Below, in pieces: positions 13,029 through 28,238 of a stretch of 42,657 bases of DNA; position 1 is the first letter of the stretch, and each line of letters opens with the position of its first letter. Source of the stretch: a virus; IMG/VR virus record IMGVR_UViG_3300023242_000124, positions 1 through 42,657 of that record; one strand, 5' to 3'. The position numbers were made by a program, and so were the translations under genes. The notes beneath the pieces are model-generated. The model was not told the DNA's origin and ran no database searches. It saw nothing but the letters and a program-made list of their open reading frames with translations.

Positions 13029-13045
13029 GTTAGTGCTGCCCTAAC
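13029..13045. promoter_or_regulatory. GTTAGTG box 1 (degenerate right arm)
   Basis: GTTAGTG-CTG-CCCTAAC, one mismatch in the right arm. First member of the repeated inverted-repeat family, in the divergent control region 133 bases before the first rightward gene. Confidence 0.7.
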
Positions 13046-13178
13046 AAGCCAAGACGTGATGCGCTACGCTTAGCAGGCGTTACCGTTCGGCGTTATCTCT
13101 TGTCATGTCATGCCATAACGTGTTACCTATTAGGCATCGGCAAACAAGTAAGACCGATATAACCCGAGAGGAAACACT

Positions 13179-13697
13179 ATGTCTAACATCACACTTACAG
13201 CCGCTGCCGCTGTCGCGATAACTTCCGCCGTGTCTGCCGTGGAAGGCGCATCACGCAAGATGCAGTCTAGCATCGACGCGCTAGTCGCGGCGGGCATGCG
13301 ATCGACCGACTTCGTATCACCTAAATCCAAAGACGGCGGCTCGACTTCATCGCCCGAGCAGTTCGAAGCGATAAACGCGGCGATCGTGGCGGGGTTCACG
13401 GCGCGCACTCAAAAGCTTCTGGTGGCACCAACCAAAGCGCTGCCCGAGGCGGACAAGGCAGAAAAGCGCTATGCGCAGCAGCAGATCGGTGCGCGCCGTA
13501 ACGACTTCAAGCGTGGCCTTGAAAAGCGTGAAGGCAAGGCGGACGACCGCGCACCACAACAACCTAAGTCGGCAGAGGACAAGATCCGCGCGATGATAGA
13601 GAGCATCGAAAAGCTGGTTCAAGGCGCGGAAGCTCTGACATTCGACGCGGCCGACTTTCTTAAGGCGCTTCGCGATCTGAACAAGATGGTCAAGTGA
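13179..13697 (+). CDS. Unknown helical early protein (172 aa)
   Basis: Starts ATG 13179 behind GAGAGGAAACACT. The sequence begins MSNITLTAAAAVAITSAVSA and is Ala-rich and helical, with a basic charged middle (QQQIGARRNDFKRGLEKREG) and a C-terminal helix ending LRDLNKMVK. There is no signal peptide cleavage pattern, membrane segment or enzyme motif. It is the first rightward gene and is followed by a strong terminator, so it is expressed as a separate short unit, probably early. I do not recognise the family. Confidence 0.8.
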   Translation: MSNITLTAAAAVAITSAVSAVEGASRKMQSSIDALVAAGMRSTDFVSPKSKDGGSTSSPEQFEAINAAIVAGFTARTQKLLVAPTKALPEADKAEKRYAQQQIGARRNDFKRGLEKREGKADDRAPQQPKSAEDKIRAMIESIEKLVQGAEALTFDAADFLKALRDLNKMVK

Positions 13698-13768
13698 GAC
13701 TGTCTGACATCTTCGGGGTGGTGGCGATCTTCGCCATCACCTACGCCTTCTTACTTATGACCCCGTGA
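13694..13768 (+). CDS. Possible tiny membrane peptide (24 aa)
   Basis: A GTG at 13694 overlaps the previous stop (GTGA) and opens 24 codons, VRLSDIFGVVAIFAITYAFL and a short tail, closing with TGA just before the terminator. The product would be one hydrophobic helix. The overlap and position inside the transcript support it, but there is no strong ribosome binding site and the length is minimal. Confidence 0.35.
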   Translation: MRLSDIFGVVAIFAITYAFLLMTP

Positions 13769-13828: not shown

Positions 13829-13845
13829 GTTAGTGTCACACTAAC
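13829..13845. promoter_or_regulatory. GTTAGTG box 2
   Basis: GTTAGTG-TCA-CACTAAC, perfect arms, at the left edge of the first tandem hairpin unit. No gene follows directly. Confidence 0.85.
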
Positions 13846-13929
13846 AAATTGAGACCAGTTCTTAGGGGAGCGTCGAGCCGCAGCGCTGCGCGATAAGTCG
13901 TTCGCGGCGTGGTTGAGTGTGCTCTAGGA

Positions 13930-13952
13930 TTCGATACACTCCGTGTATCGAA
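13930..13952 (+). terminator. Hairpin A, terminator-like
   Basis: Perfect 10-bp stem with a 3-base loop (TCC), followed by CTTTT. The outer stem bases TTCG/CGAA differ from hairpin B but pair fully, so pairing is conserved while sequence is not. It may act as a weak terminator or an RNA structure. Confidence 0.6.
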
Positions 13953-13983
13953 CTTTTACCTGCGGTTGTCAAGCCCCTATTTT

Positions 13984-14000
13984 GTTAGTGTGACACTAAC
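13984..14000. promoter_or_regulatory. GTTAGTG box 3
   Basis: GTTAGTG-TGA-CACTAAC, perfect arms, at the left edge of tandem unit B, 155 bases after box 2. Confidence 0.85.
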
Positions 14001-14064
14001 ATACCGAAACCAGTTCTTAGAGGAGCGTCGAGTGTCACAGCTTGGGGTTGAGTGGCGTGCTGGA

Positions 14065-14087
14065 CTCCATACACGTAGTGTATGGAG
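14065..14087 (+). terminator. Hairpin B, terminator-like
   Basis: Perfect 10-bp stem with loop GTA followed by GTTTTT. It shares ATACAC/GTGTAT with hairpin A, while the outer four base pairs are changed on both sides (CTCC/GGAG). Confidence 0.6.
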
Positions 14088-14148
14088 GTTTTTCTTCTGG
14101 TTGTCAAGCCAAAAAAGCGCCTATCGTAAAGTATCATCTGATGGTGCG

Positions 14149-14469
14149 TGTTCGCGTAACCCATTGATATTCCACAATGTTCTCTATGTTCGCAAAATGG
14201 CCTTTTTGTAACCCATTGAAAACAAACAAATGTTCGCAAATGGTTTTTTGTAAGTCATTGAAAACAAACAAATGTTCGCAAATTGTCGAGAATGCAGTTA
14301 ATACATCCCAGCGCAGCTGCCCCCCCGCATGTTCGCAAATCACTAAATCCAAGAAGGGTTTTTAAGAGGTATATACTATTTTAACTAAAAAACGAACATC
14401 CGAACATTTCAATGAAATCAAGGCACTGCGCGTTCGCGACCTATTAGAAGTGAGAACATCCAAGAACAT
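14149..14469. repeat. Iteron-like array, candidate replication origin
   Basis: Forward elements related to ATGTTCGCAAA occur at 14149 (TGTTCGC only), 14177 (ATGTTC only), 14186, 14230, 14272 and 14329. Reverse elements GAACAT occur at 14394, 14402, 14454 and 14464. The copies at 14230 and 14272 lie in a 42-base direct repeat that also includes CATTGAAAACAAACAA. The two orientations face each other across an A/T-rich core (about 14356-14392). This layout resembles iteron or initiator-binding arrays of replication origins, but a repressor-binding array is an alternative. Confidence 0.6.
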
Positions 14470-14497
14470 ACGTCCCCTTACCTCCATTCACCATCAT

Positions 14498-14526
14498 TTG
14501 ACATAGCCTGATAGGCGTGGTATAGT
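14498..14526 (+). promoter_or_regulatory. Strong sigma70-type promoter P1 with operator
   Basis: TTGACA (14498-14503), a 17-base spacer and TATAGT (14521-14526). An inverted repeat GTGGTAT-N9-ATACCAC (14517-14539) overlaps the -10 box and predicted start, suggesting repressor control. GTTAGTG box 4 begins exactly 73 bases after the first base of the -35 box, the same distance as at P2. Confidence 0.8.
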
Positions 14527-14570
14527 TAAATCATACCACCAAATACTCCCCTGCAACACCCCGCGCCACT

Positions 14571-14587
14571 GTTAGTGACGCACTAAC
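14571..14587. promoter_or_regulatory. GTTAGTG box 4 (start-associated)
   Basis: GTTAGTG-ACG-CACTAAC, perfect arms, in the P1 leader. The following AAGGAA and ATG 14603 place it 15 bases before the start codon. Confidence 0.88.
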
Positions 14588-14602
14588 AAGGAACACCACC
14601 CG

Positions 14603-14884
14603 ATGTGTGAAAAGATGTTATCACAAGACAAGAACCAGCGACCCCTCGCTGGTCTCTCCAAGACCGAGCTGCGCACCCTGTGCGCCACCCACTATCGTGC
14701 CGCTGTCGCCCGAGAAGCCCAAGGCAAAGCGTTCATCCTGCGGGCCAAAGCAGGCGTCAAGACAGCCCCCCGTGCCAAGCACAAAGAGTGGAACCGCGAC
14801 GAGGCCGAGTCCCGCACCTTCGGTGCATTTAACAAGGCCAACCCACTAACACGAGAACGCTGGTCATACAGCGAGAACAAGTAA
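14603..14884 (+). CDS. Unknown early protein (93 aa)
   Basis: First gene after promoter P1, starting ATG 14603 with AAGGAACA upstream next to box 4. The protein is polar and basic, with a helical start (LAGLSKTELRTLCATHYRAA) and a C-terminal FGAFNKANPLTRERWSYSEN. One or two Cys residues are present but no motif is recognisable. It has no membrane segment. Early position and small size suggest a host-takeover or regulatory protein, which is inference only. Confidence 0.75.
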   Translation: MCEKMLSQDKNQRPLAGLSKTELRTLCATHYRAAVAREAQGKAFILRAKAGVKTAPRAKHKEWNRDEAESRTFGAFNKANPLTRERWSYSENK

Positions 14885-14894
14885 GGAGAAGAAG

Positions 14895-15101
14895 ATGAAA
14901 TGGTATATCGCAACTATCATGCGCGACTTCGCGTTCTATGGGTTCACCACCTGCCCGCTCACCGACGAGCAACTCACTGCACTCTACCGTGCCAACATCA
15001 AGGTCGATCAGGCCTACGGCATCGGGTGCGACGTGCATGCGGGTTTCAGCTTCGATGAGGCTGTTAGTGCCGCCACTAACAAGGAGAAAGAAGATGCCTG
15101 A
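14895..15101 (+). CDS. Unknown small protein (68 aa) carrying an in-frame box
   Basis: Starts ATG 14895 with AAGGAGAAGAAG upstream. The product begins MKWYIATIMRDFAFYGFTTC and has mixed helix/strand character. Box 5 (15063-15080) lies in its C-terminal end and is translated as VSAATN, followed by a Lys/Glu tail (KEKEDA). The last 8 bases overlap the next gene, so the box also serves as that gene's start-associated element. No family is recognised. Confidence 0.75.
   Translation: MKWYIATIMRDFAFYGFTTCPLTDEQLTALYRANIKVDQAYGIGCDVHAGFSFDEAVSAATNKEKEDA
15063..15080. promoter_or_regulatory. GTTAGTG box 5 (in-frame and start-associated)
   Basis: GTTAGTG-CCGC-CACTAAC, perfect arms. It lies inside the end of the 68-aa gene and 13 bases before the next ATG, immediately ahead of AAGGAGAAAG. 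Confidence 0.88.
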
Positions 15102-15297
15102 TTGTTATTGCCTCACCTGCGGTGACACCTATCCCGCTGCGCGGCGCGCGCTGGGCTACCAGACCTGCCTGTCATGCGGCGAGGAAGCCGCTATCGCGAT
15201 GCGCACCTCATGGTGCATCGTCCCCCTGCCAAAGCAGGGCTACACGCGGGTGAACAAGAAAGCCGAACTGAAACAACTTAACCAGAAGGTGCGATAA
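15094..15297 (+). CDS. Small zinc-finger protein (67 aa)
   Basis: ATG 15094 follows AAGGAGAAAGAAG and overlaps the previous gene by 8 bases. The product starts MPDCYCLTCGDTYPAARRAL and has CxxC pairs at C6/C9 and C25/C28, with extra Cys at 4 and 41. The pairs are spaced as in a small four-Cys zinc finger, similar to DksA/TraR-type fingers of phages. The C-terminus is basic (TRVNKKAELKQLNQKVR). It may modify host transcription or bind nucleic acid; this is a guess from the fold type. Confidence 0.75.
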   Translation: MPDCYCLTCGDTYPAARRALGYQTCLSCGEEAAIAMRTSWCIVPLPKQGYTRVNKKAELKQLNQKVR

Positions 15298-15298
15298 C

Positions 15299-15571
15299 AT
15301 GACGCCGCGATGGAAAGTGCGCCCCGAGACAAACGTAGAGCCCCTGATATTTCGTGGGCGGGCAGGCCCGTTGGATATATGGGAAGATACGTTTGACCTA
15401 TTCGCGCCTTTTCTCGCGGTCTACGAGGCGGGCGGGCGGACCGAGAGTTCGTGGTGCAGGGACGCCGAGCACGTAATCATGAAAGCCGAGCGGGCAGACA
15501 TACACCTCACGCTGCACGATCAGTGCAGGGTCCACCAGATATGTGCGGGAACCGCCGGCCGAGAACTTTGA
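15299..15571 (+). CDS. Unknown small protein (90 aa)
   Basis: Starts ATG 15299 just after the TAA of the zinc-finger gene, with a weak AAGGTGCG ribosome binding site. The protein contains PLDIWEDTFDLFAPFLAVYE and two His/Cys-rich segments near the end (HLTLHDQCRVHQICAG). No domain is recognised. The next promoter (P2) overlaps its 3' end. Coupled spacing supports it as a real gene. Confidence 0.65.
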   Translation: MTPRWKVRPETNVEPLIFRGRAGPLDIWEDTFDLFAPFLAVYEAGGRTESSWCRDAEHVIMKAERADIHLTLHDQCRVHQICAGTAGREL

Positions 15572-15596
15572 CATAGCGTGTGTAATACGCTATGAT
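15568..15596 (+). promoter_or_regulatory. Strong sigma70-type promoter P2
   Basis: TTGACA (15568-15573), 17-base spacer and TATGAT (15591-15596). ATACCAC at 15602-15608 lies at the predicted start, as in P1. Box 6 starts 73 bases after the -35 box, exactly as at P1. It should drive the DUF3150-like/MoxR/VWA operon. Confidence 0.82.
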
Positions 15597-15640
15597 AAGA
15601 TATACCACAAAAACACACTACAACAAACCAGCCGTCACTT

Positions 15641-15658
15641 GTTAGTGGCGGCACTAAC
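15641..15658. promoter_or_regulatory. GTTAGTG box 6 (start-associated)
   Basis: GTTAGTG-GCGG-CACTAAC, perfect arms, in the P2 leader, 17 bases before ATG 15676 and just ahead of GGAGAGAG. Confidence 0.88.
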
Positions 15659-15675
15659 ACTGGAGAGAGAACACG

Positions 15676-16557
15676 ATGCCTAATGATTTCAATACCCCGA
15701 CGATCTCGTCATCCTCGATGCTGGTCGAACTCAGCATCTCAACGTGGACTGGACGCAAGCTGGACAAGCGCGCATCCAAGGACATCACATCGCAGAACTA
15801 CGCGGCTGACGGCGTAGCTAACGTGAACAAGAAGCTGCTGGGCGACTGCGCCGAATTGAGCGCAGTGCAGAAGTTCACAGCCAACCTGCGAAACGCACAC
15901 TATTCCATGACCATGCCGTGGTCCGACACGGGGCTGCGCCTGCTGCCTACAGCGCAGTATTTCAAGTATCACGCGCAGATGACCGCGTTGCAGGCAGAAT
16001 ACGGGCGGCTCGTGGCGCTGTTCCTGAACGCATACGACTGGGAGATCATGCAGGCACAGACAAAGCTGGGCGACCTGTTCATCCGCGACGACTACCCCAC
16101 GACCGAGAGCCTGCATAACAAGTTTAGCTTCAGGCTGACTTACATCCCGCTGCCCGATGCAGGTGACTTCCGCATCGACATTGCCAACGACGCAGCCGAG
16201 GAACTGCGCGCGCACTACCAGAACTACTACACCACACAGTTGGGTGTCGCCATGAAGGACGTGTGGAAGCGGACATACGACGCGCTGTCCCGCATGAGCG
16301 AGCGGCTCGACTACGCCGACCACGAACAGAAGAAGGTGTTTCGTGACACACTCGTGGAGAACGTAGCCGAGATGATCGACCTGATGCGTGTGTGTAACGT
16401 GGCCAACGACATGCAGATGGCTGCGATGGCCGACAACCTCGAAGAAGCCATGCGTGGTGTGACACCCGATGCACTGCGTGAGGACGAGTGGCTGCGCCGC
16501 GAGACTAAGCGCAACGTGGACAAAGCGATCAAGGCCCTGCCCTCGCTCGACATCTAA
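15676..16557 (+). CDS. DUF3150-like protein of MoxR/VWA operon
   Basis: A 293-aa protein starting ATG 15676 with GGAGAGAGAACACG upstream. The N-terminus has LVELSISTWTGRKLDKRASK, which resembles the start I recall for DUF3150 proteins, followed by a NVNKKLL segment. The rest is long helices (AQMTALQAEYGRLVALFLNA; then NYYTTQLGVAMKDVWKRTYD) with no catalytic motif. Genes of this type often lie beside MoxR-like ATPases and VWA proteins in bacteria and phages, as here. A structural or adaptor role for the ATPase is inferred. The family name should be verified. Confidence 0.65.
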   Translation: MPNDFNTPTISSSSMLVELSISTWTGRKLDKRASKDITSQNYAADGVANVNKKLLGDCAELSAVQKFTANLRNAHYSMTMPWSDTGLRLLPTAQYFKYHAQMTALQAEYGRLVALFLNAYDWEIMQAQTKLGDLFIRDDYPTTESLHNKFSFRLTYIPLPDAGDFRIDIANDAAEELRAHYQNYYTTQLGVAMKDVWKRTYDALSRMSERLDYADHEQKKVFRDTLVENVAEMIDLMRVCNVANDMQMAAMADNLEEAMRGVTPDALREDEWLRRETKRNVDKAIKALPSLDI

Positions 16558-16592
16558 GATGTCGGCTAGTGAACCATAACAAAACAGGCGGC

Positions 16593-16610
16593 GTTAGTGC
16601 CGCCACTAAC
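16593..16610. promoter_or_regulatory. GTTAGTG box 7 (start-associated)
   Basis: GTTAGTG-CCGC-CACTAAC, perfect arms, 20 bases before ATG 16631 and followed by AACCAAGGAG. Confidence 0.88.
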
Positions 16611-16630
16611 ACAACCAAGGAGAACTACAC

Positions 16631-17722
16631 ATGACTACCGCACAACAGATGTATCACATCAACCTCGACCAGATCGCAGCACTCATCAAGGCGACGGGTC
16701 ACAAGCGCACCACACTGGTGCAAGGCCACATGGGCACAGGCAAGAGCAGCCTGCTGCGCACGCTCGCCAACGATCTACCACAACACACCGCGTGTTACTT
16801 CGACTGCACCACCAAGGACTTGGGTGACATCACGCTGCCTGAGATAATGAAGACGAGCGGGAAAGGATACGTGACCTATGCCACCAACGAGGAGTTGGGT
16901 GCGCACCATGGCGGGCCAATTATCCTGATGATCGACGAGTATGGCAAGGCTAATCCCGCCGTGAAGAACGCACTGTTACGTCTCATGCTGGAGCGCAAGA
17001 TCGGTAGCTACGAGCTGCATCCTGACAGCGTTGTGTTCGCCACCACTAACCTCGGTGCCGAGGGTGTCGGTGACTTGTTGCCACCTCATGCGCGTAACCG
17101 CATCACCGTGGTGACTGCGCGCAAGCCGAGCAACATGGAGTGGATCGAGTGGGGCATCAACAACGGCGTGGACCACACCCTGTTGGGCTGGTGCAAGGAC
17201 AACCCGCAGCTGTTCCTTGGCTTCGAGGACATCAAAGACCCCGAGGAGAACCCGTATATTTACCACCCCAAGGCACAGCGTGCAGCGTTCGTCACACCTC
17301 GCTCGCTCGAAGCTGCCTCGGATGTTCTCAAGGAACGCCACCTGATCGACCAGCAGACTACAACGGCGGCGCTCATGGGCACGATCGGTGACCGTGCGGC
17401 GATGGACCTGATGGCCTTTGTCAGTCTGGCTGACCAGCTGCCCTCGCTGGAGAGCATCAAGAAAGACCCGCTCAATGCACTGGTGCCTGCCTCTGCCGCA
17501 GCTGTTTGTATGGTGGTGTATCGGACACTTGCATCATTGGAGCGTGACTGGCTCGATGCGTGGATGGAATATATGCAGCGGCTCGACAAGGAAGCGCAGG
17601 GTATGTTCGCCAATGGTGTGCGTGCTCCCAAGTATTCCAAGCAGGCTATGGTGATGACCAACAAGAAGTTCACGGCGTGGGCCATGCAGAACAACTACCT
17701 GTTTGCAGCAGATAAGAAGTGA
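16631..17722 (+). CDS. MoxR/CobS-like AAA+ ATPase
   Basis: A 363-aa protein starting ATG 16631 behind AAGGAGAACTACAC. Walker A is GHMGTGKSS (32-40), Walker B is LMIDE (about 99-103), sensor 1 is FATTN (136-140) and HARNRIT supplies a likely arginine finger. A C-terminal helical region of about 180 residues completes the MoxR-type layout. Such ATPases usually act with a VWA-domain partner to remodel or load cofactors into target complexes (RavA-ViaA, CobS-CobT). Here the VWA partner is two genes downstream. Its target in this phage is unknown. Confidence 0.85.
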   Translation: MTTAQQMYHINLDQIAALIKATGHKRTTLVQGHMGTGKSSLLRTLANDLPQHTACYFDCTTKDLGDITLPEIMKTSGKGYVTYATNEELGAHHGGPIILMIDEYGKANPAVKNALLRLMLERKIGSYELHPDSVVFATTNLGAEGVGDLLPPHARNRITVVTARKPSNMEWIEWGINNGVDHTLLGWCKDNPQLFLGFEDIKDPEENPYIYHPKAQRAAFVTPRSLEAASDVLKERHLIDQQTTTAALMGTIGDRAAMDLMAFVSLADQLPSLESIKKDPLNALVPASAAAVCMVVYRTLASLERDWLDAWMEYMQRLDKEAQGMFANGVRAPKYSKQAMVMTNKKFTAWAMQNNYLFAADKK

Positions 17723-17733: not shown

Positions 17734-18054
17734 ATGGCTAAGAGATACAAGCGCAAGACGTCGAGTAACACCGGCACAGCATGGACGGACGAGCACACTG
17801 ACACATTGCTTACCATGTATCATGCAGGGTTTGACACGTGGGATATTGCCAAAGCACTTAACCGCTCGAGAGGCGCGGTGCAGCAGCGCATCTACGTCAC
17901 GGGCCTGCACAAGCAGCCGAAAAGATACGAGACTGTTAGTGTACCACTAACAAGTGAGGACGCAACTAAACACGTGGTTAGTGATACTAACACGTCGACA
18001 TTAAAACGCTGGTGGACCCGCTTGTTCGGCGGGTCAGATATGGGAGCACAATAA
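17734..18054 (+). CDS. Small HTH DNA-binding protein
   Basis: Start chosen at ATG 17734 (MAKRYKRKTSSNTGTAW), which has GAGGAGAGAAACA upstream; the frame extends to 17719. The 106-aa product has a Myb/GcrA-like helix-turn-helix: AWTDEHTDTLLTMYHAGFDT then WDIAKALNRSRGAVQQRIYV. A flexible tail follows that is encoded by two GTTAGTG boxes (VSVPLT and VSDTN) and ends in a short aromatic-basic segment. It lies between the ATPase and VWA genes. It is one candidate regulator of the boxes or of the operon, by inference. Confidence 0.75.
   Translation: MAKRYKRKTSSNTGTAWTDEHTDTLLTMYHAGFDTWDIAKALNRSRGAVQQRIYVTGLHKQPKRYETVSVPLTSEDATKHVVSDTNTSTLKRWWTRLFGGSDMGAQ
17935..17951. promoter_or_regulatory. GTTAGTG box 8 (in-frame)
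   Basis: GTTAGTG-TAC-CACTAAC, perfect arms, translated in phase GTT-AGT in the linker after the HTH domain. Confidence 0.82.
17977..17991. promoter_or_regulatory. GTTAGTG box 9 (degenerate, in-frame)
   Basis: GTTAGTG-A-TACTAAC with a single-base spacer and one arm mismatch, 26 bases after box 8 in the same gene and phase. Confidence 0.5.
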
Positions 18055-18055: not shown

Positions 18056-19273
18056 ATGCTGATGATGGGTAACTTAACGCCAGACCAGAGGGTGCAGAAG
18101 GCTGTGATCGACATCATGGCTAACCTCAAATACAGGGCGCTGGTAGGTGTGCTAATGATCGGGGCACGACGTGTCGAGCATGACGCGCAGCGTTGTCCGA
18201 CTGCATATACCAACGGCAAGGACGAGGTGTATGGCGCTGACTTCATCGCCGACCTCAACGACAGACAGCTGCGCTTCCTTGTGCTGCACGAGGTGTATCA
18301 CAAACTCTATCGCCACCTCACCACGTGGCAACATCTCTACAAGGAGAACGCGCAGCTGGCCAACATGGCCTGTGACTACGTCATCAACGGTAAGCTGGTC
18401 GACGACAACGCTGACCTGTTCGCCACCATGGACGGCAAGCTGAGCATCGGGTGCTACGACGACAAGTATCGTGGGTGGGACAGCGCGCAGGTGTTCAACG
18501 ACCTCAAGAAGAACCCGCCCCCGCAGGGGCAGGGCAGTGGTGTTAGTGGCGGCACTAACACGGGAAATGGCTTCGATGAGCACGGCTGGGATGATGCGTC
18601 CGACATGACCGCAGAAGAACAGCGGGACTTGGCGCGTGAGATCGACGAGGCTGTGCGGCAAGGTGCGCTGGCTGCTGGCAAGCTGGGCAGTGGTGCTGAC
18701 CGCGACATGGTTGAACTGTTGCAGCCACAAGTGGACTGGCGCGAGGTGCTGCGTGACTTCGTGCAAACAACTTGTCAGGGCAATGACTACTCGACATGGC
18801 GCAGGCCCAACCGTCGTTACATCGGCGCGGGTATCTACCTGCCGAGTGGTATCAGCGAGAGTATCGGTGAGATCGTGGTGGCTATCGACACGTCAGGCAG
18901 CATCGGTGCGCGTGAACTGGGTGCCTTCCTCGCCGAAATCAAATCGGTGGCGGACACGGTGCACCCCGAGGCTATTCGCATCCTGTATTGGGACACGCGC
19001 GTGGCAGGTGACGAGCGGTATGAAGGGGCCGAAGCGGACAACATCGTGCAGTCTACCAAGCCCAAGGGCGGCGGCGGCACCGACGTGCGCTGTGTGCCAC
19101 AATACATCGCAGACAAACAGATCAAGGCGCAGGCAGTGATCGTGCTGACCGACGGCTATCTGTGCGGTGGCTGGGGTGAGTGGCACCACCCTGTGCTGTG
19201 GACTGTGTTGGACAACGAGCGGGCCAGCCCTGACGTGGGCAAGACCGTGCACATTGAATCGAGGGATATGTGA
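18056..19273 (+). CDS. VWA-domain protein with metallopeptidase-like N-terminus
   Basis: A 405-aa protein starting ATG 18056 with GGGAG upstream. The N-terminal domain (about 1-200) resembles DUF2201-type metallopeptidase-like proteins and has H78-E-V-Y-H82 in LVLHEVYHKLYRHL. A Gly-rich linker encoded by box 10 follows (VSGGTN). The C-terminal VWA-like domain has a MIDAS: D278-T-S280-G-S282, T342 in GGGGTDV and D366 in LTDGYLC. Partner of the upstream MoxR-like ATPase by analogy with ViaA or CobT. A third zinc ligand was not identified, so peptidase activity is uncertain. Confidence 0.82.
   Translation: MLMMGNLTPDQRVQKAVIDIMANLKYRALVGVLMIGARRVEHDAQRCPTAYTNGKDEVYGADFIADLNDRQLRFLVLHEVYHKLYRHLTTWQHLYKENAQLANMACDYVINGKLVDDNADLFATMDGKLSIGCYDDKYRGWDSAQVFNDLKKNPPPQGQGSGVSGGTNTGNGFDEHGWDDASDMTAEEQRDLAREIDEAVRQGALAAGKLGSGADRDMVELLQPQVDWREVLRDFVQTTCQGNDYSTWRRPNRRYIGAGIYLPSGISESIGEIVVAIDTSGSIGARELGAFLAEIKSVADTVHPEAIRILYWDTRVAGDERYEGAEADNIVQSTKPKGGGGTDVRCVPQYIADKQIKAQAVIVLTDGYLCGGWGEWHHPVLWTVLDNERASPDVGKTVHIESRDM
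18542..18559. promoter_or_regulatory. GTTAGTG box 10 (in-frame linker)
   Basis: GTTAGTG-GCGG-CACTAAC, perfect arms, translated VSGGTN in the Gly-rich linker between the HExxH and VWA domains. Confidence 0.82.
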
Positions 19274-19380: not shown

Positions 19381-19791
19381 ATGGGATACAGAAGTGACGT
19401 GTTGATCGCTGTGGCGTTCAAGAACAAGGCACAACGCGACGAGGTGTTGGCAGTCTATGTGATGGACCAGCGTGTGACGGACAACAACCTCGCACCTGCG
19501 AGGTGGAAGAACTACGACGAGGGTGAATACCCCGTGCTGTATTTCGAGGCCGAAGATGTCAAGTGGTATGACAACTACGACGACGTGCAGGGTATCGAGC
19601 ACCTGATCGACGTGGCGTCTAACTTCGCACAGGAACGTGGGCATCCGTTCGCTGCACTACACTATCGCATCGGCGAGGAACTCAGCGACATCGAAACCAC
19701 TGAGAAGAAGGCTGATCCCAGCGGGGAGATGATGAGTTTCTTATTCGACATGTGCGGCATCAAGCGCCGCCTCACACACAACTTCGGTTAG
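19381..19791 (+). CDS. Conserved phage protein (136 aa)
   Basis: Start chosen at ATG 19381 (MGYRSDVLIAVAFKNKAQRD) with GGAGAAGAAAC upstream; the frame is open from GTG 19270 but that start lacks a ribosome binding site. The MGYRSDV opening is one I recall from a family of small phage proteins. The middle is acidic and aromatic (YFEAEDVKWYDNYDDVQGIE). Its TAG stop lies inside box 11. No membrane segment or catalytic motif is visible. The function is unknown. Confidence 0.75.
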   Translation: MGYRSDVLIAVAFKNKAQRDEVLAVYVMDQRVTDNNLAPARWKNYDEGEYPVLYFEAEDVKWYDNYDDVQGIEHLIDVASNFAQERGHPFAALHYRIGEELSDIETTEKKADPSGEMMSFLFDMCGIKRRLTHNFG

Positions 19792-19803
19792 TGCGACACT
19801 AAC
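19787..19803. promoter_or_regulatory. GTTAGTG box 11 (provides stop; start-associated)
   Basis: GTTAGTG-CGA-CACTAAC, perfect arms. Its TAG ends the 136-aa gene and it lies 18 bases before ATG 19822, ahead of AAGGAGATATAAC. Confidence 0.88.
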
Positions 19804-21742: not shown

Positions 21743-22109
21743 AAAAGATTTCGCTGACTACAGAGGTATGAAGTTTATAAAATACCGCGACCTAGTCCAA
21801 GCACATGGCTGGTACAGGTGTAGCCAGCGCGCGGCGTATTGGGTCGGCGATACCGAGAAGCTACCACCTGATGATAACATATACCGTGTTACTGTAGACG
21901 GTGTGATCGGACATGTTCGTGTAGCATGTATTGGCCTAGAAAGTGTTGACGCGATAGTAGATGGTAACTACGATGGTATCGAATCGCTTCCGGACTGGAT
22001 GCGAGAGAAGATTACCTTACTCAGTATGCTGAGCTGTACCCCACCGACTGAACCTGTCGAGGGTGTGGGTCGGCGTATCAACGACGAAACATATTGGGTG
22101 TTTTGTTAG
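21729..22109 (+). CDS. Unknown small protein (126 aa)
   Basis: Starts ATG 21729, overlapping the previous gene by 14 bases. The sequence MWLGEKDFADYRGMKFIKYR continues with a mostly beta segment (DNIYRVTVDGVIGHVRVACI). It ends YWVFC with a TAG stop supplied by box 12. No domain is recognised. It closes the run of unknown genes after the VWA protein and is followed by a UUCG-capped hairpin. Confidence 0.7.
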   Translation: MWLGEKDFADYRGMKFIKYRDLVQAHGWYRCSQRAAYWVGDTEKLPPDDNIYRVTVDGVIGHVRVACIGLESVDAIVDGNYDGIESLPDWMREKITLLSMLSCTPPTEPVEGVGRRINDETYWVFC

Positions 22110-22121
22110 TGCGACACTAAC
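22105..22121. promoter_or_regulatory. GTTAGTG box 12 (provides stop)
   Basis: GTTAGTG-CGA-CACTAAC, perfect arms. Its TAG ends the 126-aa gene. The following bases include a GGGGC-TTCG-GCCCC hairpin and an ACCGAAACCAGTT segment also found after box 3. Confidence 0.86.
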
Positions 22122-23495: not shown

Positions 23496-23866
23496 TGGGT
23501 GATGACACGAGACGCGTTGCTGAACTGCACATGGCAGGTCACAGCCACGCTGCGATACAACTAGCCACAGGATTTGGTTACACCAAGGTTGTCCGGGCTG
23601 TTGTCATAGCACGCAAGGCGGGCATGGTCCCGCCACGCAAGAATAAATCAACACCGCGACAGCGGGTAAAATACCTGTTTGCCAACCGTAAGATTAAGTT
23701 GGGGTTTATGAGCGACATCCTGCTTGGGCTAACACCGGACCAGCTGGACTGGCTGGCGGTTGAGGCGGACAAAATCGGCTGCGCATCAGTGGCCGAATAC
23801 ATCACAGAAATGGTGCGCGACGCACATGCAGAGGGGGCCGCGAATGGCAATGACGCCGGAAGCTAA
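23492..23866 (+). CDS. HTH-type small protein (124 aa)
   Basis: Start chosen at ATG 23492, overlapping the previous TGA (ATGA); a second ATG follows directly. Residues about 5-45 look like a helix-turn-helix (RRVAELHMAGHSHAAIQLAT followed by YTKVVRAVVIARKAG). A basic linker leads to a helical C-terminal half with LTPDQLDWLAVEADKIGCAS. The second part resembles small CopG/MetJ-type segments only weakly. A DNA-binding regulator is likely but unproven. Confidence 0.6.
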   Translation: MMGDDTRRVAELHMAGHSHAAIQLATGFGYTKVVRAVVIARKAGMVPPRKNKSTPRQRVKYLFANRKIKLGFMSDILLGLTPDQLDWLAVEADKIGCASVAEYITEMVRDAHAEGAANGNDAGS

Positions 23867-24152
23867 AGTTAAAAAGGTCGTGGTGCAGCAGCTTAAGGAC
23901 ATGGGTGCTTACTACTTCTACCCCGTGACTGGAGGCTATGGTACCAGCGGCGTACCCGACATCGTGGGCTGTTATCGAGGAACGTTCTTCGGGATTGAGT
24001 GCAAGGCAGGCAAGAACAAGCCGACACCCTTGCAAGAAAAGAACCTTAAGCACATCGCCGAAACCGGCGGGGTGGCGTTAGTAGTCAACGAGGACAACAT
24101 GAAACATGTTAGGGATACACTAACAAAGGCGGTGCCAGATGGCATCGAGTAA
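23844..24152 (+). CDS. VRR-NUC nuclease
   Basis: Start chosen at ATG 23844 (MAMTPEAKVKKVVVQQLKD, 102 aa) with GAGGGGG upstream. It has the VRR-NUC pattern: YYFYPVTGGYGTSGVPDIVG with the active-site Asp, then GIECKAGKNKPTPLQ with the Glu-x-Lys pair, then VALVV. Small stand-alone VRR-NUC proteins are common in phages and are PD-(D/E)xK nucleases that may act on branched DNA. Degenerate box 13 is in its C-terminal end (VRDTLT). Confidence 0.85.
   Translation: MAMTPEAKVKKVVVQQLKDMGAYYFYPVTGGYGTSGVPDIVGCYRGTFFGIECKAGKNKPTPLQEKNLKHIAETGGVALVVNEDNMKHVRDTLTKAVPDGIE
24108..24124. promoter_or_regulatory. GTTAGTG box 13 (degenerate, in-frame, start-associated)
   Basis: GTTAGGG-ATA-CACTAAC with one arm mismatch, in the last codons of the nuclease gene and 14 bases before ATG 24139. 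Confidence 0.65.
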
Positions 24153-24282
24153 ATCACAGAAGTATTTTGAAGTTGAGATGTGGTGCCACATGGCGTTGGT
24201 CATGGCCCCGAAGTGGTCACCCTATAAACTACTATGGAAATTTGGAATTTGGTATGCGCAGAGAAAACAACGTGGCCTATAA
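24139..24282 (+). CDS. Small aromatic/basic protein (47 aa)
   Basis: ATG 24139 overlaps the nuclease gene by 14 bases and is preceded by AAAGGCGGTGCCAG and box 13. The frame closes with TAA at 24280-24282. The product, starting MASSKSQKYFEVEMWCHMAL, is rich in Trp, Tyr, Met and Lys. Its overlap with the following gene and box-linked start suggest a real mini-gene. No function can be given. Confidence 0.5.
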   Translation: MASSKSQKYFEVEMWCHMALVMAPKWSPYKLLWKFGIWYAQRKQRGL

Positions 24283-24724
24283 CCTGACAGAAGAAAGAGT
24301 ATGGGCATACCTGCTGAAGAACCGGCAGGCCACGGCGTACGACGTAGGAATTAATTGTGACGTTAGCGAGGAGTTTGCGGAGCAAACGATGGCCCGTATC
24401 TCGTCGCCCAACTGGAGCGAGGAGGTTAGTGTGCACACTAACAAAACACCGAGTGCGTTAGACAACCAAGTCGGTGGCGCGCATTATAAGGACATGGCTG
24501 TGCAGCCTTGGGAAGCTATGGAAGCATGGCTCACACCAGAAGAGTACCGCGGATACCACAAGGGTGTAGCGATCGCCTACCTCGCACGTGAGCGAAGCAA
24601 AGGCGGGATGCAGGACATACAGAAAGCTGTGCACCACCTGCAGCGGCTGATTGAGATGCAAGGAGAAGCAGATGACCGACCCAATACCGAAGCAAGTCCA
24701 CCCGCTAATACGAGAAACGATTAA
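24254..24724 (+). CDS. Winged-helix-like domain fused to DUF3310
   Basis: Start chosen at ATG 24254 (156 aa); upstream Met codons in the frame give an unlikely basic Trp-rich extension. Residues 1-55 (NLTEERVWAYLLKNRQATAY) resemble a winged helix. Box 14 encodes the linker VSVHTN. The C-terminal part has HYKDMAVQPWEAMEAW, then KGVAIAYLARERSKGGMQDI and a final helix, matching DUF3310 (SaV-type) proteins common in phages. The DUF3310 function is unknown. The box at the exact domain junction suggests an old gene fusion. Confidence 0.75.
   Translation: MRRENNVAYNLTEERVWAYLLKNRQATAYDVGINCDVSEEFAEQTMARISSPNWSEEVSVHTNKTPSALDNQVGGAHYKDMAVQPWEAMEAWLTPEEYRGYHKGVAIAYLARERSKGGMQDIQKAVHHLQRLIEMQGEADDRPNTEASPPANTRND
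24425..24442. promoter_or_regulatory. GTTAGTG box 14 (in-frame linker)
   Basis: GTTAGTG-TGCA-CACTAAC, perfect arms, translated VSVHTN between the winged-helix-like and DUF3310 parts. Confidence 0.82.
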
Positions 24725-24905
24725 GCAGCTGGATGACGGGTGGGAAGTAGTGAAGAAGCGCGATCACTACTTCCTGCATCACAACGGACAGCGGGTTGTT
24801 TGCATCGGCAACAACTCGTCGAAGCCCAACGACTATCAAGCAAAGAAAACCCTGCACTCACTGCAGCGATATATGGGGAACACAAATGGACCTGATAACA
24901 CTTGA
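24672..24905 (+). CDS. HicA-like small protein (77 aa)
   Basis: Start chosen at ATG 24672 (MTDPIPKQVHPLIRETIKQL) behind AGGAGAAGCAG. The middle, GWEVVKKRDHYFLHHNGQRV followed by a VCIG strand and a C-terminal helix, resembles the GW...H...H...G pattern of HicA/YcfA-type dsRNA-binding-fold proteins. No HicB antitoxin lies next to it, so toxin function is doubtful. Its final 20 bases (from 24886) are a near copy of the polymerase gene start. Confidence 0.6.
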   Translation: MTDPIPKQVHPLIRETIKQLDDGWEVVKKRDHYFLHHNGQRVVCIGNNSSKPNDYQAKKTLHSLQRYMGNTNGPDNT

Positions 24906-24906
24906 C
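24884..24906 (+). repeat. Left copy of polymerase-start duplication
   Basis: AAATGGACCTGATAACACTT and the next three bases match 25449-25471 at 22 of 23 positions. The right copy is the true start of the DNA polymerase gene. The HNH gene lies between the copies. Confidence 0.8.
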
Positions 24907-24936
24907 TATAGGCATGTAGACTGTTTATGAGTAACT

Positions 24937-25449
24937 ATGAGCAAGAAAAACACTCCCGAAAACTTTTGGTCCCGCGTACGACAGGGGGCCAGCATCGAGT
25001 GCTGGGAATGGCAAGGAGCTACTACCAGCAGCGGTTATGGTAACCTGTCGTGGCACGGGCACAATGTGCAAGCACATCGCGTGGCTTATGCCCTGACCTA
25101 TGGTGGTATAGCTTTACAAATGGGGTTTAGGCACGAAGGAAAGGCAAAGCGCTACAGACGGTTTGTCCTGCACAAGTGCGACAACCGGCTGTGCTGCAAC
25201 CCCAAACACCTATTTCTTGGCTCGATGCGCACCAACCTGCTCGACGCCTACACAAAGGGTCGCAAGGTGCAACCACGGAGCGGCCACGCAAACGCAAAGC
25301 TCTCCGCCACGCAGGTGGTGGATATACGCAAGGCATATGACGCCGGGGGGACTCGGCAGGTGGACCTAGCCGCAAAATACGGTGTCAGCCAACGCGTCAT
25401 AAGCCTCCTTGTTCGTCGTGAAACCTATAAAGATATATCGGAGGACTAA
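24937..25449 (+). CDS. HNH homing-type endonuclease
   Basis: A 170-aa protein starting ATG 24937. The N-terminus has FWSRVRQGASIECWEWQGAT and the HNH core is AHRVAYALTYG, then FVLHKCDNRLCCNPKHLFLG with the expected His, Cys and Asn residues. A C-terminal helix-turn-helix (RQVDLAAKYGVSQRVISLLV) should bind DNA. Free-standing HNH genes of this kind are mobile and cut DNA at the allele lacking them. Here the gene is placed exactly at the start of the polymerase gene and is flanked by a 23-base duplication of that start. Confidence 0.87.
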   Translation: MSKKNTPENFWSRVRQGASIECWEWQGATTSSGYGNLSWHGHNVQAHRVAYALTYGGIALQMGFRHEGKAKRYRRFVLHKCDNRLCCNPKHLFLGSMRTNLLDAYTKGRKVQPRSGHANAKLSATQVVDIRKAYDAGGTRQVDLAAKYGVSQRVISLLVRRETYKDISED

Positions 25450-25471
25450 AATGGACCTGATTACACTTGAC
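25449..25471 (+). repeat. Right copy of polymerase-start duplication
   Basis: Matches 24884-24906 with one mismatch; contains the ATG of the polymerase gene. Confidence 0.8.
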
Positions 25472-27280
25472 ATGGAGACTTATTATGACAAGGACTACTC
25501 CCTGTCGAAGATGACGACCGAAGGGTATATCCGCGACGAGCGGTTCGAAGTCGTTGGCGTCAGCGTTAAGGTAAACAACGGTGAGCCCGAATGGGCCAGC
25601 GGGACCATGGGGCAGATCAAGAAGTATCTGCAGCGGTTTGACTGGGCGGGCAGCATGATGCTGGCGCACAACACCATGTTCGACGGTGCCATAGCGTCGT
25701 GGCACTTCGACGTTCACCCCAAGGCGCTAGCCGACACGATGCACATGGCGCGTGCACTGCACGGGGTCGAAGCCTCTGCATCCCTCAAGGCTGTGGCCGA
25801 CCGCTATGGCGTAGGCGTCAAGGGCACCGAGGTAGTGCGGGCCATGGGCAAGCGACGTCTGGACTTCTTACCAGAAGAACTCAGCACCTACGGGGACTAC
25901 TGCATCAACGATGTGGAGCTGACTTACAGCCTGTTTCAGATCATGGCCAAGAAGTTCCCGATGAAGGAGCTTCGCCTGATCGACCTGACCCTGCGCATGT
26001 TTACTGAGCCGACGCTAGAGCTAAACAAGTCACAGCTAGAAGCGCACCTCGTAGCGGTGCAGGAACGCAAGGAGAAGCTGCTCGTCGATGCAGGCATCGA
26101 GGACAAGAGCGACCTCATGTCGAACCCGAAGTTTGCGCTCATGCTAAACATGCTAGGCGTCGCTCCGCCCATGAAGGTAAGCCCCACGACGGGCAAGGAG
26201 ACCTTCGCCTTTGCCAAGAATGACGAAGAGTTTAAGGCGCTTCTAGAGCACGATGACGATCGGGTGCAAGCACTCGTGTCTGCGCGGATGGGCACCAAGT
26301 CCACGCTAGAAGAGACAAGGACGCAGCGGTTCATCGGCATCGCCGAGCGCGGCAAGCTACCTGTCCCTGTGCGTTACTATGCTGCGCATACTGGGCGCTG
26401 GGGTGGCGACGATAAGATCAACCTGCAGAACCTGCCGAGCAGGGGGCCCAACGCCAAGTCGTTGAAGAAGGCGATCATCGCGCCCCAAGGGCATACGGTT
26501 ATTGAGGCCGACTCCGCACAGATCGAGGCACGGGTGCTTGCATGGCTGGCTGGGCAGGAAGACCTTGTTAGTGCGTTCACTAACAGAGAAGACGTCTACA
26601 AGAAGATGGCGTCAACAATCTACGGTGTAGCGGTAGACGACGTGACCAAGGACCAGCGCTTTGTTGGTAAGACCACAATCCTCGGTGCGGGCTACGGCAT
26701 GGGTGCGGTCAAGTTCCAAGCGCAGCTAAAGACGTTCGGGTTTGACATGCCCCTCGACGAAGCACGGCGGGTCATCAACATCTACCGCGACGCTAACTGG
26801 AACATCAGCAACCTGTGGAAAGAAGCGCAGGTCATGCTGCGTTACATGGCGCAGGGGGACAAGGTGACCTTCGGCAAATCTGGTGTGATCGGAGTGGACC
26901 CCGCCAATAAGGCACTCATTATGCCGAGCGGGTTGCCTATGTACTACAGCGGACTGTTCGCAGTCGAGGAAGAAAAAGGCCCGCAGTATTACTATAAGGT
27001 ACGCAGGGGAGACAATAAAATCTACGGCGGCAAGGTGGTAGAGAACGTCTGCCAAGCCATAGCACGCTGTATCATTGGTGAGCAGATGTTACGTATTGCC
27101 AAGAGATACAAAGTAGTGTTGACTGTGCATGACTCTATCGTATGCTGCGTACCCGACGCCGAAACTGACGCGGCCAAGGCATACATCGAAGACTCAATGC
27201 GTTGGGTTCCGGACTGGGCCGCTGGTCTACCCGTGGACTGCGAAGCAGGAACAGCAAAAAGCTACGGAGAATGTGAATGA
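25451..27280 (+). CDS. polA: Family A DNA polymerase with 3'-5' exonuclease
   Basis: Start chosen at ATG 25451 (609 aa) behind GGAGGACTAAA. Exonuclease motifs: D7/E9 in LDMET and HNTMFD near residues 73-79. Polymerase motifs: GRWGGDDKINLQNLPSR, motif A with D354 in EADSAQIE, O-helix R403, K407, L411 and Y415, and motif C VHD (559-561). It should replicate the phage genome. Leu at 411 equals E. coli residue 762, a variant known in marine viruses. Box 15 is encoded as VSAFTN just after motif A. No 5'-3' exonuclease domain is present, which is normal for phages. Confidence 0.93.
   Translation: MDLITLDMETYYDKDYSLSKMTTEGYIRDERFEVVGVSVKVNNGEPEWASGTMGQIKKYLQRFDWAGSMMLAHNTMFDGAIASWHFDVHPKALADTMHMARALHGVEASASLKAVADRYGVGVKGTEVVRAMGKRRLDFLPEELSTYGDYCINDVELTYSLFQIMAKKFPMKELRLIDLTLRMFTEPTLELNKSQLEAHLVAVQERKEKLLVDAGIEDKSDLMSNPKFALMLNMLGVAPPMKVSPTTGKETFAFAKNDEEFKALLEHDDDRVQALVSARMGTKSTLEETRTQRFIGIAERGKLPVPVRYYAAHTGRWGGDDKINLQNLPSRGPNAKSLKKAIIAPQGHTVIEADSAQIEARVLAWLAGQEDLVSAFTNREDVYKKMASTIYGVAVDDVTKDQRFVGKTTILGAGYGMGAVKFQAQLKTFGFDMPLDEARRVINIYRDANWNISNLWKEAQVMLRYMAQGDKVTFGKSGVIGVDPANKALIMPSGLPMYYSGLFAVEEEKGPQYYYKVRRGDNKIYGGKVVENVCQAIARCIIGEQMLRIAKRYKVVLTVHDSIVCCVPDAETDAAKAYIEDSMRWVPDWAAGLPVDCEAGTAKSYGECE
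26567..26584. promoter_or_regulatory. GTTAGTG box 15 (in-frame in polymerase)
   Basis: GTTAGTG-CGTT-CACTAAC, perfect arms, encodes VSAFTN from residue 373 of the polymerase, in a region that normally aligns without a gap. Confidence 0.82.
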
Positions 27281-27942
27281 GCGCAGCGCCTTGGTCCTAC
27301 AGTAAACTGAAGTCTTTCGAGACCTGCCCCAAGCAGTTCTACCATGTGAACGTCCTCAAGCAGTTCCCGTTCGCGGAGACCGAAGCAATCCGCTACGGCT
27401 CCGAGTTCCACAAAGCTGCCGAGGAGTTCATGCGGGACGACAAGCCGATCCCGCCGAAGTTCAGTTTTGTGACCAAGGTGCTCGACTCACTCAAAGCCCG
27501 CACAGGTGAGAAGTTGTGTGAGCGTAAGATGGGACTTACTGAAAACCTAACTCCGTGTGGGTTCTTTGATAAAGACGTTTGGTTCCGTGGTATCGCCGAC
27601 CTCATCATCCTTGATGGCGACCTTGCATGGATCATTGACTACAAGACTGGGAAGTCCGCGCGGTACGCAGACAAGGGCCAGTTGGAGTTGATGGCACTGA
27701 CAGTGTTCGCACACTTCCCGCAGGTTAAGCGCATCCGTGCAGGGTTGCTGTTTGTGGTAGCCAACGACCTTGTCAAAGCAAACTACACTGAGTTCAATAA
27801 GGAAGAGCTGTGGCGCAAGTGGCTAGCAAAACACGCTGCCATGAAGAAGGCTTTTGATGTAGATGTATGGAACCCGAGGCCGAGCGGCCTGTGCCGCAAA
27901 CACTGCCCGGTTTTAGAGTGTCCACACAACGGAGCAAACTGA
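27277..27942 (+). CDS. RecB/Cas4-like PD-(D/E)xK nuclease with Fe-S cysteines
   Basis: A 221-aa protein starting ATG 27277 and overlapping the polymerase stop (ATGA). Active-site motifs: H45 region GSEFHKAAEEF, D108 in GIADL, D121-Y-K123 and Q135 in KGQLELMA. One N-terminal Cys (C17) and three C-terminal Cys (C206, C210, C215) match the four-Cys Fe-S cluster arrangement of Cas4 and AddB nucleases. It probably processes DNA ends with the polymerase and helicase. The phage form is a stand-alone nuclease; no CRISPR array is present. Confidence 0.87.
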   Translation: MSAAPWSYSKLKSFETCPKQFYHVNVLKQFPFAETEAIRYGSEFHKAAEEFMRDDKPIPPKFSFVTKVLDSLKARTGEKLCERKMGLTENLTPCGFFDKDVWFRGIADLIILDGDLAWIIDYKTGKSARYADKGQLELMALTVFAHFPQVKRIRAGLLFVVANDLVKANYTEFNKEELWRKWLAKHAAMKKAFDVDVWNPRPSGLCRKHCPVLECPHNGAN

Positions 27943-28226
27943 TGCCATATACAAAGAAGCCCCGTCCGTACAAGAAAGAGTACGAACAGCAGAAGTCCCG
28001 CGGCGAGCATACTGATCGAATGGAGCGGCAACGCGCCCGCCGCGCCATGGACAAGACCGGCAAGGATGCCAACGGTAACGGTAAAGCCGATAAGCGTGAG
28101 GGTAAAGACATCGCGCATAAGAAGCCGCTCTCTAAAGGCGGCACGAACAAGGACGGGTACACCGTGCAAAGCCAGAGTAAAAACAGAGCTGCAGGCGGTG
28201 CACTGAGCAGCCCCAAAAAACGTTAG
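27942..28226 (+). CDS. Small basic HNH-like protein (94 aa)
   Basis: ATG 27942 overlaps the previous TGA (TGATG). The protein is strongly basic with RMERQRARRAMDKTGKDANG, then KDIAHKKPLSKGGTNKDGYT and a SKNRAAGG end. The H-K-K-P-L-S-K-G-G-x-N segment resembles the active-site core of small phage HNH proteins, with N in TN and SKNR. No zinc-binding Cys pairs are present. Nuclease activity is likely but unproven. The TAG stop is provided by box 16. Confidence 0.7.
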   Translation: MPYTKKPRPYKKEYEQQKSRGEHTDRMERQRARRAMDKTGKDANGNGKADKREGKDIAHKKPLSKGGTNKDGYTVQSQSKNRAAGGALSSPKKR

Positions 28227-28238
28227 TGCCTCACTAAC
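28222..28238. promoter_or_regulatory. GTTAGTG box 16 (provides stop; start-associated)
   Basis: GTTAGTG-CCT-CACTAAC, perfect arms. Its TAG ends the 94-aa gene and it lies 12 bases before ATG 28251, just ahead of TGGAGAGAAC. It is the last box in the window. Confidence 0.88.

Follow-up and report, generated by a model that had tools for sequence, protein, structure and literature searches.

The window analysed here is the whole of a viral record in IMG/VR, IMGVR_UViG_3300023242_000124, of 42,657 bases. Our subject is a family of short inverted repeats in it, which we call boxes, and the gene whose product probably binds them. The portal and terminase genes form the left part of the window, on the minus strand. 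The rightward arm starts at 13179 with gene 1 (13179..13697, plus strand), which encodes the proposed box-binding protein of 172 amino acids. Behind it come small genes, a gene for a protein with a weak DUF3150 match, and the gene of a MoxR-like ATPase, followed by genes for a GcrA-like protein, a metallopeptidase/VWA protein, an HNH nuclease, and a family A DNA polymerase. Further on lie a PD-(D/E)XK exonuclease, an SNF2-type helicase, an HTH_17 protein, and a primase/helicase-like protein.

The boxes in the window

Thirteen perfect boxes (GTTAGTG-N3/4-CACTAAC) start in the range 13829 to 28222, and the boxes at 13029, 17977, and 24108 each have one mismatch. A first-pass annotation of this sequence had given all 16 coordinates correctly, including the 13 perfect copies with spacers of 3 or 4. 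Its account of the other three as one-mismatch copies stands as well, with the difference that the box at 17977 is better read as 6-base-pair (bp) arms, GTTAGT/ACTAAC, around a 3-base centre. At 13029 and 24108, the mismatch is a T-to-G change at position 6 of one half-site, and this change recurs in relatives. Chance occurrence had been judged negligible, and indeed the perfect pattern was absent from 100 dinucleotide shuffles of the window. The family had also been described as confined to the rightward arm, and we agree: beyond 13029-28238, the window has no further complete box, just five unpaired exact half-sites (GTTAGTG at 4971, 11050, 11625, and 12379; CACTAAC at 33414). We again saw that the arms are constant among boxes and the centres are variable. 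The flanks are asymmetric, as an A follows the right arm in 16/16 boxes and a T precedes the left arm in 11/16, so the box has a direction.

All of the boxes are on the plus strand. Box 1 (13029..13045, GTTAGTG-ctg-CCCTAAC) starts 150 bp before gene 1. Box 2 (13829..13845) and box 3 (13984..14000) open the first and second of two near-repeat units. These units (13829-14087, 155 bp apart, each with a box, a CCAGTT element, and a terminator-like hairpin) could be short RNA genes. Box 4 (14571..14587) is 15 nucleotides (nt) before the start of the open reading frame (ORF) 14603-14884, box 5 (15063..15080) is 13 nt before the start of ORF 15094-15297, box 6 (15641..15658) is 17 nt before ORF 15676-16557 (whose DUF3150 match is just under the cut-off), and box 7 (16593..16610) is 20 nt before the ATPase gene (16631-17722), where many relatives also have a box. 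Boxes 4 and 6 each lie 44 nt after a promoter-like site on the plus strand, TTGACA-17-TATAGT (14498..14526) and TTGACA-17-TATGAT (15568..15596), both scoring 11/12.

Other boxes lie inside genes. Box 8 (17935..17951) and the degenerate box 9 (17977..17991) are within the GcrA-like gene (17719-18054); box 10 (18542..18559) is in frame in a Gly/Ser-rich stretch of the metallopeptidase/VWA gene (18056-19273); box 14 (24425..24442) is inside ORF 24167-24724; and box 15 (26567..26584) is in frame inside the DNA polymerase gene (25409-27280). The boxes in the polymerase, VWA, and GcrA-like genes fit the reading frames of those genes. Box 11 (19787..19803) overlaps the stop of ORF 19381-19791, 18 nt before ORF 19822-20871; box 12 (22105..22121) overlaps the stop of ORF 21729-22109, 52 nt before ORF 22174-22410; and box 16 (28222..28238) overlaps the stop of ORF 27867-28226 and is followed after 12 nt by the SNF2-type helicase gene (28251-29786). 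Finally, box 13 (24108..24124, GTTAGGG-ata-CACTAAC) is 14 nt before the ATG at 24139 of a 47-amino-acid ORF.

Box types in related phages

We fetched the best 80 of the 301 relatives of the ATPase in IMG/VR. GTTAGTG boxes were found at least three times in 41 of these, once or twice in 2, and not at all in 37, while 79/80 have at least three copies of some inverted arm of 6-7 bases (low-complexity arms were kept in this count). The other palindromes are at the same kinds of place: GTTAGGG/CCCTAAC, GTTAGG-N6-CCTAAC, GTTAGTC/GACTAAC, GTTAGY half-sites, TTTACGGAATTCCGTAAA, TTTACGC, GTTATAG, and GTTATCC. Later loci added TTTAGGG, GTTATAC, TGTAGTG, and TTCGGGC. There is usually one box type per phage, with a total length of 17 or 18 bp. 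The mixed cases are L013 and G008 (T or G at position 6), G005 (G or C at position 7), and L227 (two types). For 50 of the 53 distinct records with gene 1, an automatic finder gave at least three boxes of one type, with the next best palindrome at 3.5 or below. It failed for G009 (GTTAGY half-sites, which are visible in L050) and for L148 and L149 (almost no sequence right of gene 1).

The first-pass annotation had proposed a check for the boxes at syntenic places in related genomes, and there the places are kept even between box types. We projected boxes through DNA alignments and counted a match within 60 nt of the aligned place. The TTTACGG boxes of G006 fell on GTTAGTG boxes in 8/10 testable cases for G016 (11 boxes) and in 8/9 for G019, and those of G017 fell on GTTAGTG boxes of G016 in 7/8. 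(In each of these three comparisons, two boxes share one target.)

Gene 1 tracks the box type

The pair G017 and G016 is instructive: their ATPases are 97% identical, yet G017 has TTTACGG boxes and G016 has GTTAGTG boxes. Their DNA is 96-99% identical over the left 13 kilobases (kb) and 89% identical on the right, with one unmatched module, in which the first rightward gene is encoded. Put another way, 23 of 24 ORFs of G017 are matched in G016, and the sole exception is gene 1.

An iterative profile search for the gene-1 family gave 80 open frames and 53 distinct proteins. Gene 1 is at the same place with every box type that we saw except for GTTATCC, whose phages (L029 and L033) had no gene-1 match in the short stretches of sequence before the ATPase (3.5 and 0.5 kb). 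Among loci with at least 5 kb before the ATPase, 132/136 have a match to gene 1 (some of these loci share a contig). The four without a match are L038, L311, and the pair L276 and L312, which are from one contig whose longer fetch, L009, does have gene 1. L311 encodes a diverged protein at the gene-1 place with an Asp in the apparent matching helix, as the residue-base code described below predicts for its TTTAGGG boxes; this was judged by eye and stays outside the counts. We considered L038 as a negative control with neither gene 1 nor a box family, and rejected it: it has two tandem diverged proteins at the gene-1 place (4826-6328), and CCCAC/GTGGG-like repeats are nearby instead of the usual box.

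Across 48 records, the distance between box types is associated with the distance between gene-1 proteins after ATPase distance is removed (r = 0.61, 0/5000 permutations). The values for control genes were 0.13 for the VWA gene (n = 45, 42/2000 permutations), 0.15 for the gene at 19822 (n = 22, 181/2000), and 0.24 for the gene at 20876 (n = 28, 36/2000); for two more control genes there were too few records. Other right-arm genes thus share some of the signal, probably by linkage. But for pairs of phages whose ATPases are at least 85% identical, the mean identity of gene 1 is 0.70 if they have the same box type (65 pairs) and 0.23 if the types differ (8 pairs, of which L080/G017 differs merely as TTTACGC vs TTTACGG). 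For the DUF3150-like gene, the corresponding identities are 0.89 and 0.76. The match between gene-1 version and box type, like the boxes and their conserved positions, can be read directly from the genomes.

The first-pass annotation had suggested binding tests with helix-turn-helix (HTH) proteins of the phage. The two obvious candidates in the window do not fit. A tblastn search with a positive control found the GcrA-like protein (17719-18054) in just 5/21 records (G000, G001, G002, G003, and, weakly, G008), with no match in G005, G007, G009, G010, or G011, which have boxes and are 61.8-65.9 kb; several of the other records are fragments. (An earlier search, which lacked a positive control, gave no match in 15/15 relatives.) As for the HTH_17 protein (30228-30548), its versions in G006, with TTTACGG boxes, and in G019, with GTTAGTG boxes, share 96% of 50 residues, and it therefore does not follow the box type. 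It was found in 3/15 records in a first search and in 15/21 in a second, and the remaining records are fragments of 17.2-26.3 kb.

A predicted contact between residue 109 and base 7

The gene-1 protein is predicted to be all-helical, and the model is confident (predicted local distance difference test, pLDDT, 90.6; predicted template-modelling score, pTM, 0.65), with helices at residues 8-37, 42-45, 59-71, 75-82, 90-117, 132-149, and 157-170. Residues 40-122 modelled alone give the same helices (pLDDT 91.9).

In an alignment of 26 gene-1 proteins that are less than 60% identical, the column of D109 holds full information on base 7 of the box (26 of 27 proteins were used, as L009 has no fixed base 7). 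If base 7 is G, then residue 109 is Asp in 15 proteins and Ala, Arg, or Thr in one each; if base 7 is C, it is Lys in 7 and Glu in 1. The z score of this column is 12.3, and the next best column has 8.0. The protein with Arg-109 (L020) has boxes that mix G and C at base 7, as G005 does. A further 24 proteins, which stay below 90% identity both among themselves and with the first set, comprise 16 Asp/G, 4 Lys/C, and one each of Gln/G, Gln/C, Thr/C, and Asp/C. Ten of the 24 are less than 60% identical, with 6 Asp/G, 1 Lys/C, and 3 others. Over 70 rows in all, there are 48 Asp/G and 13 Lys/C, and none of these 61 Asp/Lys rows is crossed. Box labels for these tests were assigned by hand, with L047/L054 (mixed T/G at position 6) taken as GTTAGTC and L020 taken as GTTAGTG; the first set does not include L148, and the 70 rows do not include L002, L143, L148, or the mosaic L227.

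The one Asp/C case is L227 (contig IMGVR_UViG_3300032087_000515). Its gene 1 is accompanied by five nearby boxes of the TGTAGTG type, with G at base 7, and the four boxes further right are GTTAGTC. It may be a recent recombinant or, possibly, a chimeric assembly.

The columns that most closely follow the full box type are 105, 110, 109, 68, and 112, and residues 105, 109, and 112 are spaced as on one face of the helix 90-117. It would be ordinary chemistry for an Asp to face C and for a Lys to face the G of the other strand. These patterns strongly suggest that the gene-1 protein binds the box, that helix 90-117 reads it, and that residue 109 faces base 7.

Probable operators in DNA, and what argues for other readings

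We think it fairly likely, if far from certain, that the gene-1 protein uses the boxes as operators in double-stranded DNA, and that they work on the early arm in the manner of stoperators. Each half-site (GTTAGTG in the window) would probably be read by one of two copies of the protein. Protein bound in leaders, at gene junctions, and inside early genes probably hinders host RNA polymerase that is already under way, and the box before gene 1 probably sets the level of gene 1 itself. Dimer binding, autoregulation, and repression by a roadblock rather than activation are tentative parts of this proposal.

The single-arm changes favour DNA over RNA. The counts of mismatches, starts, promoter distances, and spacers leave out near copies (G001, L143, L016, and L025) and the records for which the finder failed (L148 and G009). 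The 47 retained records have 329 exact boxes and 60 with one mismatch, of which 51 are transversions, 4 are transitions that allow G-T wobble, and 5 are non-wobble transitions. If an RNA stem were under selection, it should favour wobble; because that bias is absent, half-sites in DNA are favoured. The first-pass annotation had argued that the sequence and the pairing of the arms both matter, which suggests a stem; in our view this is not supported, as changes in one arm are mostly non-pairing transversions without an excess of wobble. In 31 of the 60 mismatched boxes, the change is a swap of T and G at position 6 that affects a single half-site, and in L013 and G008 the half-sites mix T and G at this position independently. 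A protein that reads each half-site and allows T or G at position 6 would explain this pattern.

The positions of the boxes relative to promoters are also relevant. In 34/42 rows, some of which are near copies, the distance from the start of a box to gene 1 is 121-161 bp (seven rows with uncertain or truncated starts, and rows with less than 330 bases before gene 1, are not in this count). In L055, the box lies upstream of the best promoter-like site, TTGACA-17-TACAGT (10/12). In other rows, the promoter-like sites before gene 1 score at most 9/12, and in L034 and L039 the top site (9/12) overlaps or abuts the box. Across records there are 76 promoter-like sites of at least 10/12, and for 57 of them a box lies in the range -60 to +150, which yields 59 distances. 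The box is downstream of the site in 57/59 of these, most commonly by 38-68 or 110-129 nt, although many of these come from close relatives. That boxes are found within genes and after promoters would be a better fit to a block of moving polymerase than to a block of initiation, and tentatively suggests a roadblock.

Several observations weigh against our proposal. First, the boxes are polar: among GTTAGTG boxes, an A follows the right arm in 323/328 and a T precedes the left arm in 238/328 (these boxes are not independent), and a plain symmetric operator does not need a polarity. Second, spacers of 3 and 4 occur within one phage, which is unusual for a rigid dimer. Third, for 146/389 boxes (37.5%), a start with a Shine-Dalgarno-like motif follows within 45 nt, mostly after 12-22 nt, as compared to 14.4% of random places and 13/389 on the opposite strand. 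Fourth, the window has 11 promoter-like sites and shuffled sequences have 9.3, so these sites are weak evidence. Fifth, the DUF3150-like gene is also associated with box type (r = 0.48, n = 48, 0/2000 permutations). Sixth, base 7 has changed independently only three times (3/3 concordant, p = 0.25), with 1-2 pairs in the first set.

Also, the gene-1 protein matches no known DNA-binding fold: Foldseek found nothing in the PDB under E = 0.001 with either the whole model or residues 40-122, and in a VIA fold search, Z was at most 5.0 for the whole model and 3.7 for residues 40-122 alone. These searches do not amount to evidence of a new fold. Among models of viral proteins, the best hit of the whole model was A0A6J5RDQ4 (E = 0.025, probability 1.00, TM 0.39), an uncharacterised protein from an uncultured phage and perhaps a relative. 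Nor did sequence comparisons help much: the protein of the window has no match in Pfam or PHROG, none in the PDB at E = 1, and none among 50,697 phage records. Of 50 gene-1 proteins, two weakly match a PHROG "HTH DNA binding protein" (best E = 0.0033) and one weakly matches HTH_TbsP_C in Pfam (E = 0.00017).

The polarity of the boxes and their placement before starts are why we keep a role in RNA as a rival, if an unlikely one. The boxes would be hairpins before ribosome-binding sites, and the gene-1 protein or another factor would bind them to tune translation or RNA decay. Besides the excess before starts with Shine-Dalgarno motifs, the single direction with its A after the right arm fits this idea, and spacers of 3-4 bases would suit loops. 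But the single-arm changes mostly break pairs, with no preference for wobble, and position 6 varies between T and G in each half-site independently of the other. Some boxes are inside genes, and the box before gene 1 in L055 is upstream of the best promoter-like site, though the calls elsewhere are weak and the top sites in L034 and L039 overlap or abut the box.

We give still less credence to the idea that the boxes are operators of another protein and that gene 1 only accompanies the box type, owing to its position at a recombination joint. There is indeed a crossover near gene 1 in G017/G016, given the drop in identity from the left 13 kb to the right; both records are fragments, so the partner could be a gene that is not seen; and the association of the DUF3150-like gene with box type would be expected. 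Yet linkage alone does not predict that one residue should match one base, and this match held in further proteins. Also, gene 1 is the sole unmatched ORF in G017/G016, and the GcrA-like and HTH_17 proteins are poor candidates, given the narrow distribution of the one and the near-identity of the other between phages of different type.

It is improbable that the boxes organise the genome, by anchoring, replication, or packaging, rather than controlling genes. These inverted repeats are confined to one arm of the window and some are inside genes, as might be expected, but anchoring does not need boxes to be placed before starts and downstream of promoter-like sites. We put almost no weight on selfish palindromes that spread by copying themselves: there are many near-identical copies per phage, but the places are kept while the sequence differs, and the three in-gene boxes of the window fit the reading frame.

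A bolder version of the operator proposal is possible, though we would not rely on it. Gene 1 may define a new class of protein that binds specific DNA sequences through a simple code, in which Asp-109 specifies G7 and Lys-109 specifies C7. Phages that do not form lysogens would then use a type-specific switch with 8-20 dispersed operators, and would diverge into types blind to one another, with gene 1 exchanged and all of the operators converted. L227 would be such an exchange half-way through.

Comparison to known systems

The first-pass annotation had likened the boxes to the stoperators and start-associated sequences of mycobacteriophages, and a regulatory-looking family that is comparable to both is what we find. 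As described for cluster A phages such as L5 and Bxb1, a stoperator is one short site with many copies per genome, mainly in one orientation relative to transcription; the repressor is a monomer with two DNA-binding domains that binds an asymmetric 13-bp site; the phages form lysogens; and L5 has a binding site near the repressor gene, for which autoregulation was proposed (PMC6550527, PMC9283540). Distances between motifs and between repressors have also been compared in cluster A (PMC6550527). Our boxes likewise have a predominant orientation, as seen from their flanks in the window and in the relatives. Unlike the 13-bp site, the box is an inverted repeat of 17 or 18 bp, though its outer flanks are asymmetric. 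The gene-1 protein has no clear relative, and the box types range from GTTAGTG to TTTACGG and TTCGGGC. Going by those accounts of cluster A, then, the boxes would work most like stoperators, yet they lack the asymmetric site that defines that system.

In cluster K, the extended start-associated sequences (ESAS) have imperfect 17-bp arms with spacers of 4-13 bp and are tied to a 13-bp element at the start, the start-associated sequence (SAS) GGGATAGGAGCCC; the section that we consulted gives the function as unknown and names no binding partner (PMC3203893). The boxes resemble ESAS as inverted repeats that lie just before starts, in a non-structural arm, with a consensus that differs by subgroup. 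Their arms are 7 bp and their spacers 3-4, unlike those of ESAS as described there, and we propose a partner gene. Allowing up to 2 mismatches, we found the 13-bp element itself nowhere in the window.

Two other comparisons are to classical phages. Operators of lambdoid phages consist of half-sites and are about 17 bp in all; they are clustered at two promoters, and heteroimmune relatives swap the repressor together with its sites. The boxes have half-sites and a similar total length, and regulator and sites differ together between phages, but the arm has about 8-20 scattered boxes, and gene 1 belongs to another protein family. The promoters of the N4 virion RNA polymerase lie in early regions and are short inverted repeats around 3-base centres, as some of the boxes are; in N4 the loop is kept and the stem varies, whereas in the boxes the arms are fixed and the centre varies. 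Overall, the boxes look like dispersed phage operators with a new family of partner. In a literature represented mostly by titles and the openings of abstracts, with few subscription journals, we recognised no description of the box or of the gene-1 family.

If we are right, then an undescribed family of phage proteins gains a likely job and a target site from comparisons of genomes, along with a prediction of which residue reads which base that can be checked. There would be a second stoperator-like system, a palindromic one, outside of the mycobacteriophages and apparently without lysogeny. It also raises the question of how a phage changes its regulator and about ten scattered operators together. 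A similar approach might be used to seek the partner of the inverted repeats of cluster K, for which the text available to us names none.

The rest of the genome

The window is about 70% of a genome of roughly 60.5 kb, because a close relative, G001, has 60,681 bases with a 127-base terminal repeat and is 94-99% identical to the window over the longer aligned parts. There is no near DNA match to the window among the 50,697 phage records, and the primase has just distant matches (at best 30%). The ATPase and metallopeptidase/VWA proteins are similar to those of several phages of 70-80 kb, which we take to be N4-like. The GcrA-like gene, with its two boxes, matches Pfam GcrA at E = 7.3e-6, which is exactly at the cut-off; given the distribution of GcrA, this match hints at an alphaproteobacterial host. 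Relatives with the ATPase or terminase pattern were absent from genome_contigs, so the hosts may be unsampled.

The apparent lack of lysogeny reflects the lack of any match to a tyrosine integrase or serine recombinase (PF00589 or PF00239) in 9/9 relatives of 59.8-65.9 kb. Searches of control genomes with these families were positive in 14/14 and 10/14. This may set them apart from cluster A phages.

Elsewhere in the window, a protein of 2322 amino acids with a DarB-like antirestriction match is encoded on the minus strand at 34640-41608. The Rfam family Mu-gpT-DE RNA has a match of 68.9 bits at 4396-4448 on the minus strand, which suggests a Mu-like capsid module in the window.

Lastly, there is a second non-coding repeat, approximately GA[AT]ACCAGTTCY...GCG..GAGCC, which is on the forward strand after boxes or hairpins, and in the window is at 13851, 14006, and 22149. 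With a loose pattern, we counted 181 forward and 27 reverse copies of this CCAGTT-type repeat; 48/53 records have at least one, and these include phages of several box types.

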